The notes below the pieces were generated by a model. It saw only the letters and a program-made list of their open reading frames with translations, did no database searches and had not been told where the DNA came from. Positions 5,754 through 13,337 of a stretch of DNA of 64,000 nucleotides are shown here, piece by piece. The DNA comes from Candidatus Obscuribacterales bacterium (GTDB lineage Bacteria; Cyanobacteriota; Vampirovibrionia; Obscuribacterales; Obscuribacteraceae). The stretch's first letter is position 1; each line of letters begins with the position of its first letter. Where the stretch lies: NCBI GenBank assembly GCA_021732025.1, contig JAKFVU010000077.1:1-64000 (forward strand). Direction: 5' to 3'. A program made the translations under genes and the position numbers.

Positions 5754-6245
5754 ATGCGGAAAGAGAAGCAATCGCTGATAACCAACCATGGAGCTGAAGC
5801 TAAGAGCGAGGCTGATGGCGAGATTTTGCAAGTGCGGCGGGTGGTGGCCGGCAATCCAAATACACCGAAGCAAGTATTAGAGCGCTTAGCTGAAGACAAA
5901 TCAGAAGCTATTCGTCGGGCCGTTGCCGAGAATCCTAGAACTCCAGTCGATATTCTCAAGAAGCTCGTTTTTGACACTGACTATGAAGTGCGTTTGGCTG
6001 TAGCAGAGAATGCTAATACCCCGGCCGACTGTCTTGCTCTCTTAGCCAGTGATGACAGTGCCGATGTTCGCTATGGTGTCGCTGAAAGCCCCCACATGCC
6101 TGAGCAAATACTGATTGATTTGGCTCATGACGACAACCCTTATATAAGGTGTCGAGCACTAAAGACACTGCAAATGATGGCTCCCGATTTACAAGCAAGG
6201 CTGAAGTTGCTGTTAACACCACCCGAACAGCAATTCGGAATTTGA
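5754..6245 (+). CDS. leucine-rich-repeat-variant (LRV) protein
   Basis: Four about 26-aa repeats: VAGNPNTPKQVLERLAEDKSEAIRRA / VAENPRTPVDILKKLVFDTDYEVRLA / VAENANTPADCLALLASDDSADVRYG / VAESPHMPEQILIDLAHDDNPYIRCRA. Confidence 0.8.
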   Translation: MRKEKQSLITNHGAEAKSEADGEILQVRRVVAGNPNTPKQVLERLAEDKSEAIRRAVAENPRTPVDILKKLVFDTDYEVRLAVAENANTPADCLALLASDDSADVRYGVAESPHMPEQILIDLAHDDNPYIRCRALKTLQMMAPDLQARLKLLLTPPEQQFGI

Positions 6246-7034: not shown

Positions 7035-8684
7035 TTGTTCAATATGTCATGGTCTAATGTTTTTGTCCAACTTTTTAGATTCGTTACATGCAACGTTCAA
7101 AGCCAAGCAGGGTCTGACATAGACAGCACGAAGCCAACTCTTTATCCCTTTGATTCTCAAGCGCTGACACAACTGGCGGTGGGTTCGTCTGTATTTATTG
7201 CCTTTGTATTGGCAATCACAGATGTCATTCCTCTTATACCGAATGCAACTTCAGTTATCGGTCTGGTTTTGCGCGTGGTGGGCGACTGGATTATTGTGGC
7301 CGTCATATGGTTTTTGGGATTTTTGGCCATTACCCAAACGCTCAAATTTATCAGCCGTGGCGTATGGATAAGCGAAAAAGGCATCAAACTTTCGCGCTTT
7401 GACCGGGTGGTGCCATGGACATCGATAAGGGCCGTGGCCGTCGAGCCCAATTTTTTCTTCACTAAGTTGTTTGGGCTCAAGCACACAGCTAGACGTCTTA
7501 CTATTCTTTTTCATTTTGAAGTTAAGAACAAACTACTTTCTAGTTTGCTTTTTCCTAATTACATCCCATCCTTTTTCTTTAGCAAAGCAACTTTCGATCA
7601 ACTGGTGAAAGATGTCTTTGCCAAAAGTGGTGCCCTACCCAATAGAACATTGCCAGATGATTTGCCATATGAGTACGCAGTTGTCGCAGCTGCTGCTTCT
7701 GCAGATGCATTTGAAATTGAAAATTGGAAGCATTTGCGCAAAACCTACGGCTGGTTGAACAAGCAAAAAATTCTTGTCACTGGCGTAATTTTAGTTAGCC
7801 TAGTCGTCTTTCTCGGTCGTAAGGCTATGGTTTACTATTGCTTTAACAGTGCAGGGAAAGCGGCAGCTGAAGCCAATTTTGAATTGGCTCGCGATTATTA
7901 TCAGTGGTCAGTCAAATTAGAACCAATGTTCGCTGCTGGCTGGAATGGCCTGGGGCAAGCCGAGTTTAGATTGGCAGAACAACGACGAGCCGACTTTAGT
8001 ACAGCTGTGCGCGATTGGCGCCGGGCAATATTTCTCAAGCTAGATTATGTTGAACCCCGGCTAAATATCGTGCGCGTTTGTCTCTATCGACGTGATTATG
8101 CCGAGGCTAGTCGCTTATTAGAGCACGCCCTCAAATTGGCACCATATGATGGTTTAGCCTTGTTGGAAAAAGCAGAATTAGATTTGGCTTTAGGTCAGTA
8201 CAGCCAAGCACAGAAAGATGCCAGGCTGCTGCTCAGCCAAGGTGTAAATGCAAGTCAAAATCCTGAATATGTCTTCAAAGCTAGATGTCTTCTAGCTCAG
8301 GCCAAATTAGCCCAAGGCGATGCTCTTGCTGCCCAGAAAGAAATTGAACAGTATTCATCAGAGCCGCAGTCATTCACTAAAGGTGAAGACGTCACTTATT
8401 TACTTATGACACGGGCGCAGATTCTTTTGGCTCTAAATCAATTAGAAGCGGCTGAGAGTCATATTCGCTTAGCTGTTCGTCGTCAACCATACAATCAAGA
8501 AGTGTTAGTGCAAGCTGCTTTGATCAGCCTTGCGCGCCATCAATTAGCCGATTGCAAATTTTTCTTAGAACGCGCCAAAGTCGTTAATTCAGCCCAGGCC
8601 GCCAACTCAAATACTAACCCCTGGTTGGCCACCATTGCTAGTCGCTTGGCGGCGGCGCAAGTAAAAGATGAGAAAGCTAGGTAA
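7035..8684 (+). CDS. membrane protein with N-terminal TM/PH-like region and C-terminal TPR domain
   Basis: N-terminal hydrophobic segments, GVWISEKGIKLSRFDRVVPWTSIRAVAVEP (bacterial PH-like appearance), third TM (KILVTGVILVSLVVFLG), then TPR-like repeats. Alternative ATG at 7044. Confidence 0.65.
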   Translation: MFNMSWSNVFVQLFRFVTCNVQSQAGSDIDSTKPTLYPFDSQALTQLAVGSSVFIAFVLAITDVIPLIPNATSVIGLVLRVVGDWIIVAVIWFLGFLAITQTLKFISRGVWISEKGIKLSRFDRVVPWTSIRAVAVEPNFFFTKLFGLKHTARRLTILFHFEVKNKLLSSLLFPNYIPSFFFSKATFDQLVKDVFAKSGALPNRTLPDDLPYEYAVVAAAASADAFEIENWKHLRKTYGWLNKQKILVTGVILVSLVVFLGRKAMVYYCFNSAGKAAAEANFELARDYYQWSVKLEPMFAAGWNGLGQAEFRLAEQRRADFSTAVRDWRRAIFLKLDYVEPRLNIVRVCLYRRDYAEASRLLEHALKLAPYDGLALLEKAELDLALGQYSQAQKDARLLLSQGVNASQNPEYVFKARCLLAQAKLAQGDALAAQKEIEQYSSEPQSFTKGEDVTYLLMTRAQILLALNQLEAAESHIRLAVRRQPYNQEVLVQAALISLARHQLADCKFFLERAKVVNSAQAANSNTNPWLATIASRLAAAQVKDEKAR

Positions 8685-8697
8685 GAAGGAGTGATCG

Positions 8698-9093
8698 ATG
8701 TCTAGGACCTTAACCATTGGCGAAGAAGCTCCCGGTGGCGGTGCTAAGCGCTCGAGCCAAGTGCTCTTGCCCGAGCGGCTAACTGTGCGGCAATTGATAG
8801 GTGCATATGTCGATGCTCAGATTGCTCAGCAGCAATCTGCAGAGTTGGTGCATCAATCATTCTTTATTCCGACAGAAGACGAACTAATTCTCAATCAAAA
8901 GTCTCATTCAGTGCCAAAAAGTAAACCGCTCGACCGAGAGAAATTGCAGACTCGTGCTCTTTTGGCCTTTGAACAAAATCGATACTTTATCCTGATAGAC
9001 AATAACCAGGCCGAGAATCTAGATCAAGAGATTGTACTTACTTCTCAGTCGCAAGTGACATTCTTGAGATTGACACCGCTAGTTGGAGGATAG
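8698..9093 (+). CDS. putative ubiquitin/MoaD-like beta-grasp protein ending in Gly-Gly
   Basis: 131 aa; QVLLPERLTVRQLIGAYVDAQI...LQTRALLAFEQNRYFILIDNNQAENLDQEIVLTSQSQVTFLRLTPLVGG; strong SD (AAGAAGGAG); terminal -VGG. Confidence 0.6.
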   Translation: MSRTLTIGEEAPGGGAKRSSQVLLPERLTVRQLIGAYVDAQIAQQQSAELVHQSFFIPTEDELILNQKSHSVPKSKPLDREKLQTRALLAFEQNRYFILIDNNQAENLDQEIVLTSQSQVTFLRLTPLVGG

Positions 9094-9097
9094 TTCC

Positions 9098-11539
9098 GTG
9101 GAGCTACCACAAGAGCATTCAGAACTTCGCAAGCAAGCGCAAACAATCATAGAAGAATTAGCGACAATGGGTTTTCATTCGCCTAATTGGAATTGCAATC
9201 CGGCTTTGACAGAGCGAACCTTGGAGGTAATGAAGAGCGATAGGGCCTTGTTGGTGGAAATTTTGTTTGAGTGTTTAGAAGAGCTTGATTTTAATCGGCC
9301 GAGAGTTAGTAAGATGGCTCCTGCCTCGCTAGAAAGTTTGGCAGTCGAGCTACTGAGGCGGAACCTCGAATTTGATTCGACCCAGATCGCCACTTTGATC
9401 AGCCTTGCCCATAAAGCACCGTCCTTTAGGCGAACCCGCTCTGCGCGAATAGTCGATGTGGTTGAGAAGTTTGTGAAAAAACACGGGCTGACTGAGCCTA
9501 TTCGGCTCAACCTCGAGAAGTTTGCTCGAATGATTGCAATCAATATAGATGAGAGGGAAACCAATAGGATTGTAAACCGAGCGTTCTCTATTTGCACAGG
9601 CTGCCGGCCCCAGGATGTTCCGGTTCTGCTTGAGCCTGGTGAAGCGGCAGGCGATCAGATTATTGCTGATTGCAAGCTGATGACGCCAGCTGACAGTCAG
9701 CTTTGGAATCGAGTTTTGAATCATGCAGTCAGTTTGACTGCCGTGAAGCCTTCAATTAAGTGGCAGTCTGAAGCGCAAAAACTTCTAGCGCAAGTCGGTC
9801 GCGAGAATTACTCTAAATATGCTTCGCGCTGGCTATCTCTAATTGGTGTTCGCGGCACACGAGACGTCCCACCAGATCATTGGTCTGACTCGAACGAGTT
9901 AATTTGTGCTACCAATGCTGAAGTTTTAAAAGGTATTGTCTGGTTTCTTGTTAGCTATAGCGATGACGAGACGGCGCGATTGCTTGGTGCCACAGCTGAC
10001 ACTTGTTTTAGGAAAGTGAAGAATCACGGTGCCCGCAGTCCGAAGATTGCTAATGCTTGCGTCGGCGCACTATCTATGATGCCTTTTAAGGAAGCGATCT
10101 CTCAACTATCTAGATTGGCTGCTAAGGCGAAGAGTCCGTCTGCTCGTAAGACCATTGACAAGGGCCTAGGGAGCGCTGCCGAGCGCTCTGGTATGACAGT
10201 GGAGGATCTTCAGGAAGTCAGTGTTCCTGATTTTGGTTTCAGCAAATTTGGAGTCTACCGAAAACAGTTTGCTCAATTTGAAGTTGAGATTGTCATTGCT
10301 GGCGTTCATTCGTTAGTAGTTAATTGGAGTGTGGATGGTAAACCTTTGAAGGCGCCATCTACGGCGATGAAACGTGATTTTCCGCTAGAGCTTAAAGCAA
10401 TAAAAAAGACGGTAATTGAGCTGGAGAAACTATTGCCTTCAATTCGTGACCGCATTGAAATGAGCTTGTTGCAACAACGCAATTGGCCGTTCTCAGTTTG
10501 GCGCGAGCGCTATTTGAATCACCCCGTCTGTGGCGTTCTCGCCCGGCGACTGCTCTGGACTTTTAACGGTAAAACTGGACTTTGTCTAGATGGAAAGATT
10601 TGTGATTTAGCCGGCGCTGAAATTGCAGTATTAGATAACACTTTAGTTGAGTTGTGGCATCCAATCGCTTCCTCGGCTTCTGATGTATTAGCCTGGCGTA
10701 CGAAGTTGCAAGAACGCGGTATTACTCAACCTTTTAAGCAAGTCTATCGCGAAATTTATTTGCTCACCGACGCGGAGCGAAAGACGGCAACCTACTCTAA
10801 TCGATTTGCTGCACACATGTTGCGGCAACATCAATTTGCCGAATTGTGTAAGCAACGGGGCTGGCATTACACTCTCCAGGGCCAGTGGGATTCGTTAAAC
10901 TCACCAATCTTGAAGCTGCCTAAATGGAATTTGGAAGTTGAATTCTTGGTTGTTCCAGCTACTGAGGATGCTTCGTCGCCAGCCGGAATATATTTGCATG
11001 TGGCCACTGACCAAGTGCGTTTTCGCCGCATCAATTCTCCTGAAGCCATTGAACTCTCTGAAATTATGCCAATAGTTTTTACTGAAGTAATGCGTGACGT
11101 AGATCTATTTGTTGGAGTATGTAGTATAGGCAATGATCCTAACTGGCAGGATGGAGGTACGTTGGGGACCTACTGGCAGTCTTATTCGTTCGGTGATCTT
11201 GGTTCGTCGGCTCAGACTAGACTGGCAGTTTTAAAAACTATCATTCCGCGCTTGAAGATAGCTGCCCGCTGTTCATTCTCTGACAAGTTCTTGATAGTTC
11301 GTGGCGATTTGCGCACTTATCGAATTCATGTCGGTAGTGGCAATATATTGATGGAACCTAACGCACAATACCTTTGTATTGTGCCCTCTCGTGGTCTCGC
11401 AAAGTCTGATATTGGCAAAGTATATCTGCCCTTCGAGGGCGATTCGCTTCTCTCTGTAATACTGAGTAAGTGCTTCCTTCTGGCCGAAGACAGTAAGATT
11501 ACAGATTCTAGTATCGTTAATCAAATCCATCAGAAGTAA
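9098..11539 (+). CDS. alpha-helical-repeat protein with DUF4132-like C-terminal region
   Basis: C-terminal signature RRLLWTF...LWHPI...WRTKLQERGITQPFKQVYREIYLLTDAERKTATYSNRFAAHMLRQHQFAELCKQRGW resembles DUF4132 (MolR/YehI family). Track start TTG 9083; GTG 9098 with GGAGGA SD at 9085-9090 preferred. Confidence 0.7.
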   Translation: MELPQEHSELRKQAQTIIEELATMGFHSPNWNCNPALTERTLEVMKSDRALLVEILFECLEELDFNRPRVSKMAPASLESLAVELLRRNLEFDSTQIATLISLAHKAPSFRRTRSARIVDVVEKFVKKHGLTEPIRLNLEKFARMIAINIDERETNRIVNRAFSICTGCRPQDVPVLLEPGEAAGDQIIADCKLMTPADSQLWNRVLNHAVSLTAVKPSIKWQSEAQKLLAQVGRENYSKYASRWLSLIGVRGTRDVPPDHWSDSNELICATNAEVLKGIVWFLVSYSDDETARLLGATADTCFRKVKNHGARSPKIANACVGALSMMPFKEAISQLSRLAAKAKSPSARKTIDKGLGSAAERSGMTVEDLQEVSVPDFGFSKFGVYRKQFAQFEVEIVIAGVHSLVVNWSVDGKPLKAPSTAMKRDFPLELKAIKKTVIELEKLLPSIRDRIEMSLLQQRNWPFSVWRERYLNHPVCGVLARRLLWTFNGKTGLCLDGKICDLAGAEIAVLDNTLVELWHPIASSASDVLAWRTKLQERGITQPFKQVYREIYLLTDAERKTATYSNRFAAHMLRQHQFAELCKQRGWHYTLQGQWDSLNSPILKLPKWNLEVEFLVVPATEDASSPAGIYLHVATDQVRFRRINSPEAIELSEIMPIVFTEVMRDVDLFVGVCSIGNDPNWQDGGTLGTYWQSYSFGDLGSSAQTRLAVLKTIIPRLKIAARCSFSDKFLIVRGDLRTYRIHVGSGNILMEPNAQYLCIVPSRGLAKSDIGKVYLPFEGDSLLSVILSKCFLLAEDSKITDSSIVNQIHQK

Positions 11540-11555
11540 GATTATTTCTCTCAGA

Positions 11556-13337
11556 TCACTGGGCCATGGCTGCTAGATTTCTTAAAAATACAGTCCATTG
11601 ATCTTGCGCTGTGGGCGAGATTTCTGAGGCCAAGGCTCTTGTCGTGTTTTCTTGGGCACGGTCGAGGGCAACAGAGTTAACAAGCTGACCAGCGGCCGAC
11701 TGATCAAATTGCTTGGCGTTTTCTGCCAATAGATCAAGAGCGCTGCTGTATTGGTTTTGAGTGGTGGCATTGCTTATTGCCGCTTTGGCTTCAACTAATG
11801 GTGCTACTACAAGTTCGGTACCAAACTGTCTTTCTATGGTTTCGATTTCGCGGCTTAAGCTATTCAGTAGTGACTTCTGATCTTCTAAGTTATTTAGTCG
11901 CTCGTCGCTAGCTAAACCAACAATCGATTGAACTGGATTAATCTCATCAGCCCGAGCCTGCAAGTCTAGGTAAGGGCGTCCCGGTAAGAACGTGCTTAGT
12001 CCGCCTTGGTCGTCATAACCGCCTTTCTCTTCACCGTGGTAGCTAGATATCATTTCACTTTGCCCGCGCAGTAATGCTTCTGCTGCACGTTCAATGTTGC
12101 CACCAAAATCATCTAGAGAGCCACTTTCAATTGAGCTCAATAAATTGTTGGCGAAAGTTTTGACGTCGTGAAGTTCTGCTCTGGGTGTGCCAGATATTCG
12201 GTTGCCGCCAGCTTGCGAAGCTAGAGGGCTAGCGTCTATGGCGCTGAGAATAGCCTGGCGGCCGGGTTCTGTTTGTAGTGCTTGGCTCAAACTTGCGCCA
12301 AGATTCTCTAAGCTTTGGTTGAAGCTTTCTATCTCGGAAGCATTGTAGTGGGCCAAAGTATTTGTTCCTGCATCTTGCTTGTCATCACCTAGTGCCGCTT
12401 CTCCGCCATTGGCCCCTTGAGCTGCTAAGGCAACTATTGTCTCTCCTAGATCTTCTGGGCTCATAGCCGGCCGCTCTAAAACTTCATTGACTATGGCTGT
12501 AACGTTTTGGCCATCGACATTGAGTCCGCCTGCTGACTCTACTTCGGCTGAGGCAATAATATGATCAGCGGCTTCACTCATTGCCGCTATTACTGTGCTG
12601 TTTCCCATTGAGCACGAATCAAAATCGAGTAGATCGAGGCGGTCGCGGCCTATGTTTTCGAGACCACTTTTAATAGCTGCGTCGACTTCTTCCAGGCTGG
12701 CAGAGCCGGTATCACCAGAAATGCCTTGGGGGCCACCACCGTGGCCCTGGGCAAAGAGGGCTAGATGCTCTGATGGTGCCTGCTCACCGGCTGTTGTGAT
12801 TAGGGCTTCCATATCGGCTGCCACGCCCTCTGAAGGGCGAGTTTCTAACTCTTGAATTTCGCCGTCATGAATGACATAGGTGTGAATGAGCATGCCGCCG
12901 TTTGTGCTAGAGGATTGGCTTAGCGAAACGTGAGCTTGGCCATCCACAATTTTGCTGGCATTTTTGTTAGTTGGCTTGGTGTCATTGTTCTCTTGTGGCT
13001 GGGCGTTCTGCACCACCAAAGTGATTGGCTTGTCTACGGTGCTGGCAGCTAGTGCCAGTAGCTCTGCAGCTTTGTTGCGGGCTCCGCTGTAAACCCGTTC
13101 ATCGCTGTTTAGAGGGGATTGATGCTCTTGGGTGGTAGTAAGGTTGAAGGCTAATGTCCACTCTGCATAGGGGCTAGTAAATTCAAGAGAGCCAGTGGAC
13201 AGATCTTGGCCGGCGGGTGGCGAACAAGTTTTGCCGCTGGCCAGGCAATCAAAATATTGGTCGCGCAGACCAGAGGCAGTGTCTGGCTGTTCGCTTGTTT
13301 GGGTCGGTGCATCAGTACTGGTAAATCGTGGAGCCAT
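11556..13337 (-). CDS. C11 (clostripain-like) cysteine peptidase, no obvious signal peptide
   Basis: ALFAQGHGGGPQGISGD (catalytic His) and LDLLDFDSCSMGNSTVIAAMSEAADHIIASAEVESAGG (catalytic Cys); clan CD pattern. Confidence 0.75.
   Translation of the reverse strand: MAPRFTSTDAPTQTSEQPDTASGLRDQYFDCLASGKTCSPPAGQDLSTGSLEFTSPYAEWTLAFNLTTTQEHQSPLNSDERVYSGARNKAAELLALAASTVDKPITLVVQNAQPQENNDTKPTNKNASKIVDGQAHVSLSQSSSTNGGMLIHTYVIHDGEIQELETRPSEGVAADMEALITTAGEQAPSEHLALFAQGHGGGPQGISGDTGSASLEEVDAAIKSGLENIGRDRLDLLDFDSCSMGNSTVIAAMSEAADHIIASAEVESAGGLNVDGQNVTAIVNEVLERPAMSPEDLGETIVALAAQGANGGEAALGDDKQDAGTNTLAHYNASEIESFNQSLENLGASLSQALQTEPGRQAILSAIDASPLASQAGGNRISGTPRAELHDVKTFANNLLSSIESGSLDDFGGNIERAAEALLRGQSEMISSYHGEEKGGYDDQGGLSTFLPGRPYLDLQARADEINPVQSIVGLASDERLNNLEDQKSLLNSLSREIETIERQFGTELVVAPLVEAKAAISNATTQNQYSSALDLLAENAKQFDQSAAGQLVNSVALDRAQENTTRALASEISPTAQDQWTVFLRNLAAMAQ

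Follow-up and report, generated by a model that had tools for sequence, protein, structure and literature searches.

The 64,000-nucleotide stretch of Candidatus Obscuribacterales bacterium analysed here (contig JAKFVU010000077.1, positions 1 to 64,000; the window) carries a run of three genes, the second of which encodes a small ubiquitin-like protein (Ubl) ending in Gly-Gly and the third a large protein with DUF4132 and DUF7737 domains (Table 1). A sequence-only reading had singled out this run as three co-directional, tightly spaced genes, and that description was borne out: all three open reading frames are intact, 13 nt separate the first gene, for a membrane tetratricopeptide-repeat (TPR) protein, from the Ubl gene, and 4 nt separate the Ubl gene from the DUF4132 gene. 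No terminator-like sites were seen in either junction, and the TPR gene is probably co-transcribed with the other two. The Ubl ends in VTFLRLTPLVGG, with the stop codon immediately after.

Table 1. Features of the Ubl locus, in window coordinates
Feature	Position	Strand	Basis or remark
Candidate three-gene run: TPR protein, Ubl, DUF4132-DUF7737	7035-11539	+	all three open reading frames intact
Membrane TPR protein	7044..8684	+	TPR models, hydrophobic segments
Ubl: ubiquitin-like beta-grasp protein, 131 aa, Gly-Gly then stop	8698..9093	+	AlphaFold2, Foldseek, Gly-Gly in homologues
Ubl C-terminal VGG codons and stop, GTT GGA GGA TAG	9082..9093	+	sequence
DUF4132-DUF7737 protein, ~813 aa	9098..11539	+	PF13569, PF24879; start GTG 9098
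DUF7737 domain	11210..11527	+	PF24879
Cys760 codon, motif YLCIV, proposed acceptor of the Ubl C-terminus	11375..11377	+	conservation

Two start codons needed attention. A TTG at 7035 is a possible start for the TPR frame, the ATG at 7044 being better. The large gene had been described as DUF4132-like and HEAT-like with a start at TTG 9083; the family assignment and the helical repeats stand, whereas GTG 9098, from which we number Cys760 and His744, is to be preferred as the start, since a GGAGG (9085-9089) lies just upstream of it. This Shine-Dalgarno-like sequence is built from the Gly-Gly codons of the Ubl itself. Both domains of the large protein score far above their curated cut-offs of 27 (PF13569 DUF4132, 7.5e-45, 153.5 bits; PF24879 DUF7737, 6e-38, 129.4-134 bits). 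In its AlphaFold2 model (pLDDT 84) the N-terminal half consists of HEAT/ARM-like helical repeats; Foldseek matched it to helical-repeat proteins only, so reaching no fold for the C-terminal part, and the PDB held no sequence relatives.

A ubiquitin-like protein with an invariant Gly-Gly and a conserved partner

The window Ubl has no significant sequence match in Pfam, NCBIfam or the PDB, and the evidence for its fold is structural. An AlphaFold2 model built on an alignment of 46 sequences (pLDDT 83) predicts the topology strand-strand-helix-(helical insert)-strand-strand-strand followed by a disordered Gly-Gly tail, and its top Foldseek matches in the PDB are mostly ubiquitin-fold proteins: human MOCS2A, which is of the MoaD type (TMt 0.57, E 3e-3), a ubiquitin-like domain, PI3K p110alpha chains, Urm1, MoaD and SUMO-3. 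The p110alpha chains contain a Ras-binding domain with a ubiquitin-type fold. The modest E-values (3e-3) are probably due to the helical insert. The beta-grasp fold that the sequence-only reading had suspected is thus the predicted fold of this family. Membership of the ThiS/MoaD sequence family was considered and rejected: the Pfam ThiS profile (PF02597) reached at best an E-value of 0.11, in one of 46 Ubl members, and hhalign of the Ubl profile against 14 real ThiS/MoaD proteins returned nothing significant. The relation is one of fold, with no demonstrable sequence family. A distant homologue from Deinococcus, SEP068184, has published structural matches to 5MPO, 1WGK and SAMP1 (PMC9650054).

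Of 53 genomes of the order, a translated search showed five to encode the Ubl, the window's genome among them. Scanning the wider collection with the window Ubl as a single query gave zero matches, and an alignment of the five sequences was needed; it recovered 145 loci in GTDB contigs, of which 80 were retained. They fall in Actinomycetota, Bacteroidota, Planctomycetota, Cyanobacteriota, Melainabacteria, Pseudomonadota, Chloroflexota, Calditrichota, Nitrospirota and Acidobacteriota; an additional locus bears a SAR324 label, and members in Deinococcus were recognised later. A motif named in the sequence-only reading, VSFLKLVPLVGG, proved to be the family signature. No Ubl relative was confirmed in viral contigs and no DUF4132 match was found in phage records, so a phage or virus origin was rejected.

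Because the glycine codons of the window Ubl do form the GGAGG that precedes GTG 9098, the terminal Gly-Gly might be a mere by-product of a downstream Shine-Dalgarno sequence. The homologues refute this idea, to which we give practically no weight. All 80 retained loci end in Gly-Gly although the search pattern stopped at PL[VI], short of the glycines; the dipeptide directly precedes the stop in each of 85 distinct loci, and 16 more, retrieved without any C-terminal pattern, bring the total to 101. Among the 85, GGT, GGA, GGG and GGC are each used at both glycine positions and only 20 have GGAGG at the Ubl terminus. The glycines persist where no DUF4132 gene follows (L014, L026, L046, L081), and in L018 although a separate GGAGG, located further downstream, belongs to the DUF4132 gene. 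Since all four glycine codons are used, the overlap does not cause the Gly-Gly, whose conservation goes far beyond chance and, as judged from these codons, is selected at the protein level. The sequence-only reading had rightly flagged the overlap as a possible concern.

The pairing it proposed is conserved as well, and neither outcome named as refuting that reading, a different fold or homologues without Gly-Gly and DUF4132, came about. A DUF4132 protein adjoins the Ubl on the same strand, normally directly downstream, in 75 of 81 distinct loci, and two of the remaining six are cut by contig ends. Ubl and DUF7737 also co-occur across genomes, being found in the same five in the order sample (Fisher p 3e-7), sharing six in a phylum sample with 6 Ubl and 7 DUF7737 genomes (p 2e-12), and sharing 13 in a Bacteroidia sample with 14 and 13 (p 2e-23); in all three samples the genomes are phylogenetically non-independent. 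No other family is conserved across phyla within about 10 kb of the Ubl. In particular, the membrane TPR protein, once proposed as a partner, was rejected as such, no homologue of it lying near any other Ubl copy in the neighbourhood comparison. The core of the module is therefore two genes, Ubl and DUF4132-DUF7737, with an activating enzyme (E1) as an occasional third.

Individual loci depart from this layout. Only one Bacteroidia genome encodes a Ubl but lacks DUF7737, and that Ubl is decayed, its C-terminus stopping short of the Gly-Gly (L174:55-642). Some genomes have two DUF4132 proteins, as in a tandem pair after a single Ubl (L020:10393-15577), and one Nonomuraea copy with the cysteine has no adjoining Ubl, while a second copy in the same record has one (L244:6835-10140).

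A dedicated ThiF/MoeB-type E1 and a conserved cysteine

That no E1 lies near the Ubl, as first reported, is true of the window; related operons, however, do encode a dedicated one. At seven Bacteroidia loci (L053, L166, L167, L168, L172, L173, L179) the Ubl and DUF4132 genes are followed by a third, encoding a ThiF-domain protein of 234-240 aa, and the intervals between genes run from -4 to +6 nt. Six of these proteins were combined into a profile, which aligns over the full length with MoeB (2e-61) and ThiF (1.5e-59), and also with Uba4; among the six, the nucleotide-binding and adenylation residues known from MoeB/ThiF (GxGGLG, Asp, Arg, Lys, DxxDN) are invariant. The operonic enzymes also carry a cysteine aligned to residue 184 of E. 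coli ThiF, the residue that links to ThiS, lack a rhodanese domain, and form a clade of their own (80/93) apart from the MoeB-like E1s that their own and other genomes encode. By sequence, then, the operonic E1 is a dedicated enzyme of the ThiF/MoeB type with its adenylation residues intact and a predicted activity. Elsewhere, ThiF-type E1s are present in all 12 other Ubl genomes searched, E1s of MoeB-rhodanese length occur in many Ubl genomes, and ThiS/MoaD proteins are found separately in the host genomes. An E1 adjoining the Ubl at L014 was rejected as a dedicated partner: it groups with a relative's MoeB-rhodanese-type E1, and its convergence is weak evidence. The window's genome holds a ThiS/MoaD-family protein (C29:13874-14098), yet no ThiF/MoeB-domain protein was found in it; its incompleteness may or may not account for the missing E1.

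The DUF7737 domain supplies a candidate acceptor. Cys760, in the motif YLCIV, is kept in all 72 DUF4132 proteins that stand beside a Gly-Gly Ubl, and its equivalent is present in the divergent long forms of Cyanobacteria and Deinococcus whose Ubls also end in Gly-Gly. Four long-form Bacteroidia pairs (L175, L176, L177, L239), with partners of ~1,670 aa, have lost the Gly-Gly; their Ubls end in GSYW, GSYW, GTYW and GRLW, a conserved G-x-[YL]-W, and their partners have Ser, Ser, Ser and Ala, respectively, in place of the cysteine. Two DUF4132 proteins without a nearby Ubl have Asp and Phe there. Across the 53 columns conserved in the Gly-Gly set, only Cys760 and one Leu-to-Phe change track the loss of the glycines; the nearby His744 is invariant and is retained in the clade that lacks the cysteine. 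The pattern at Cys760 would fit an E2/E3-like acceptor, though it reflects a single coupled loss.

A DNA-damage-inducible pair in Deinococcus, and comparison with known systems

In Deinococcus radiodurans the pair is DRA0165 (SEP068184) and DRA0166: the Ubl ends in ALAGG, and its gene lies 2 nt upstream of that for the DUF4132-DUF7737 partner, which has the cysteine. Published work gives this operon a stress context. DdrO represses it, with strong derepression upon DdrO depletion; DRA0166 is induced by mitomycin C in an IrrE-dependent manner; and an operator, GGTTATGCTATTTACATAAC, was placed at -83 of DRA0165 (PMC8533742). We find the operator at that exact position (L240:4722-4741), and two further Deinococcus species have motifs resembling it upstream of the pair. 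SEP068184 is induced by peroxide and gamma rays, its deletion mutant has higher peroxide resistance, and 157 proteins co-precipitate with it; it was described as Deinococcus-specific, with a MoaD-like predicted structure and without an RDRM (PMC9650054). The sequences compared here contradict both the specificity and the absence of an RDRM. As published, DRA0165-DRA0166 was not described as a Gly-Gly Ubl or linked to DUF4132, to an E1 or to a wide family. The literature that we searched, with preprints and most subscription papers outside its scope, mentions DUF4132 in only three papers and DUF7737 in none, and did not describe a pairing of Ubl with DUF4132.

The system resembles several known ones in part. 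Like ThiS/MoaD (PF02597), the Ubl has a predicted beta-grasp, a C-terminal Gly-Gly and, probably, service by a ThiF/MoeB-type E1; unlike them, it has a helical insert of ~50 residues (131 aa against ~80) and no cofactor genes nearby. Urm1 and the archaeal SAMPs are likewise MoaD-type Ubls served by ThiF/Uba4-type E1s, for which sulfur transfer and stress-time protein modification are both documented; here, in contrast, there is a dedicated large partner with a conserved cysteine and an operonic E1 devoid of rhodanese. Bil, type II CBASS and the E1-E2-JAB systems also place a bacterial Ubl and an E1 in one operon, whereas no E2, JAB or cGAS-like gene recurs within ~10 kb of ours, and the E1 is of the minimal MoeB/ThiF type. 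A library of defence systems was silent apart from generic E1 similarity, and a known defence system was accordingly rejected. Operons of ThiS/MoaD-like proteins and E1s beyond cofactor synthesis were catalogued by Iyer et al. in 2006; in the parts of that catalogue consulted, the systems carry rhodanese, JAB or sulfur genes and DUF4132 is not a partner (PMC1779556). The E. coli protein YehI (MolR-type) shares the DUF4132 domain, but E. coli has no DUF7737 match, and the genes around YehI are of the MoxR, VWA and SWIM types, none adjoining it being annotated as a Ubl; a link to molybdate was rejected as merely historical naming.

Two other genes flank the window locus. A clostripain-family (C11) peptidase gene (11556-13337, minus strand; PF03415, 7e-13) converges on the DUF4132 gene and shows no sign of belonging to the Ubl system. 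Upstream, a small LRV/HEAT-repeat protein gene (5754-6245, plus strand; PF01816, 9e-23) is separated from the three genes by an opposite-strand response regulator.

Proposed thioester transfer and its alternatives

The observation is real, and the reading of the small protein as a Ubl is well supported: a predicted fold, invariant glycines, a conserved partner, an operonic E1 with intact active-site residues and a correlation between cysteine and Gly-Gly are all in hand. Because the Gly-Gly is invariant, DUF4132 is adjacent, seven operons contain an E1, and Cys760 was lost together with the glycines, we propose that the Ubl is activated and passed to the DUF7737 cysteine, with the DUF4132 protein acting in a ligase-like manner, and give this proposal a probability of roughly one half (about 0.48). 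An E1 would adenylate the C-terminal glycine, using the operon's own enzyme in some Bacteroidia and elsewhere probably a resident one of the MoeB/ThiF type; the activated C-terminus would then move to Cys760 to form a Ubl~S-DUF7737 thioester; and the helical-repeat half would choose the recipient, so that one polypeptide might combine the roles of E2 and E3. In Deinococcus, DNA damage turns the pair on. The stress induction of the Deinococcus homologue and its many co-precipitating proteins lend support (PMC8533742, PMC9650054). Adenylation, thioester formation, transfer and substrates are steps that we infer, a thioester being the most likely chemistry, ahead of sulfur delivery.

The most serious competitor is a sulfur carrier, in which the E1 would make a Ubl thiocarboxylate and DUF4132-DUF7737 would accept the sulfur to thiolate a metabolite, an RNA or a cofactor; by analogy with ThiS-ThiG, MoaD-MoaE and CysO-CysM, Cys760 could then be an acyl-disulfide or persulfide site. 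The nearest folds (MoaD/MOCS2A and Urm1), the type of the operonic E1s with their equivalent of ThiF Cys184, and the MoeB-rhodanese-length E1s of many Ubl genomes all suit such a role. The operonic E1s, however, have no rhodanese domain in their 234-240 aa, separate ThiS/MoaD proteins exist in the hosts, and genes for sulfur or cofactor metabolism are not a recurrent feature of the neighbourhoods. That neither sulfur-metabolism and rhodanese families nor JAB and E2 families recur nearby counts towards the thioester, and we consider sulfur delivery the less likely of the two.

Several observations weigh against the proposed activation and transfer. At most loci no E1 lies beside the Ubl, and the window's genome, which is 84% complete, has zero PF00899 ThiF-domain matches, several relatives having 3-6. 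The pairs without Gly-Gly form a single clade (100/100), and the correlation with the cysteine, as read from the tree, is therefore one coupled event rather than four. That clade, moreover, retains the pair with a conserved C-terminus of its own, and in Deinococcus the list of co-precipitating proteins was identical for N- and C-tagged Ubl (PMC9650054), which argues against conjugation because a C-terminal tag should block it. These clade and tagging results, with the E1-less window genome, would suit a structural or regulatory subunit whose Gly-Gly tail docks in a DUF7737 pocket and is never activated, the E1 being a later addition. Docking, however, fails to explain two invariant, stop-adjacent glycines across more than ten phyla, and leaves unexplained both the dedicated E1 of seven operons and the joint loss of cysteine and Gly-Gly; we judge a purely non-covalent role improbable. 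That DUF7737 is instead a cysteine peptidase or deconjugase, as an invariant cysteine near the invariant His744 might suggest, is very improbable: the Ubl already ends in Gly-Gly and needs no processing, the clade without Gly-Gly keeps the histidine and loses the cysteine, and such an enzyme would be odd without any conjugating partner.

Carried further, the ligase-like proposal would make the system a minimal bacterial E1-Ubl-ligase cascade, DNA-damage-inducible in Deinococcus, in which DUF7737 is a new cysteine-dependent Ubl transferase (non-E2, non-HECT, non-RBR) fused to a helical-repeat substrate selector, a tentative extension to which we give distinctly less than an even chance. Bacterial Ubl activation is known; what is possibly new is the class of cysteine acceptor. 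Our results point to an overlooked Ubl system spanning at least ten bacterial phyla, and they place DUF4132, DUF7737 and a nameless family of small proteins in a functional frame of ubiquitin-like chemistry, with a dedicated E1 identified and a specific cysteine and C-terminus predicted. Its hosts include the tractable Streptomyces, Hymenobacter and Deinococcus, and the published induction of DRA0165/0166 by stress and its broad co-precipitation list gain a framework. If the ligase reading is true, DUF7737 would represent a new route by which a cysteine relays a ubiquitin-like protein.

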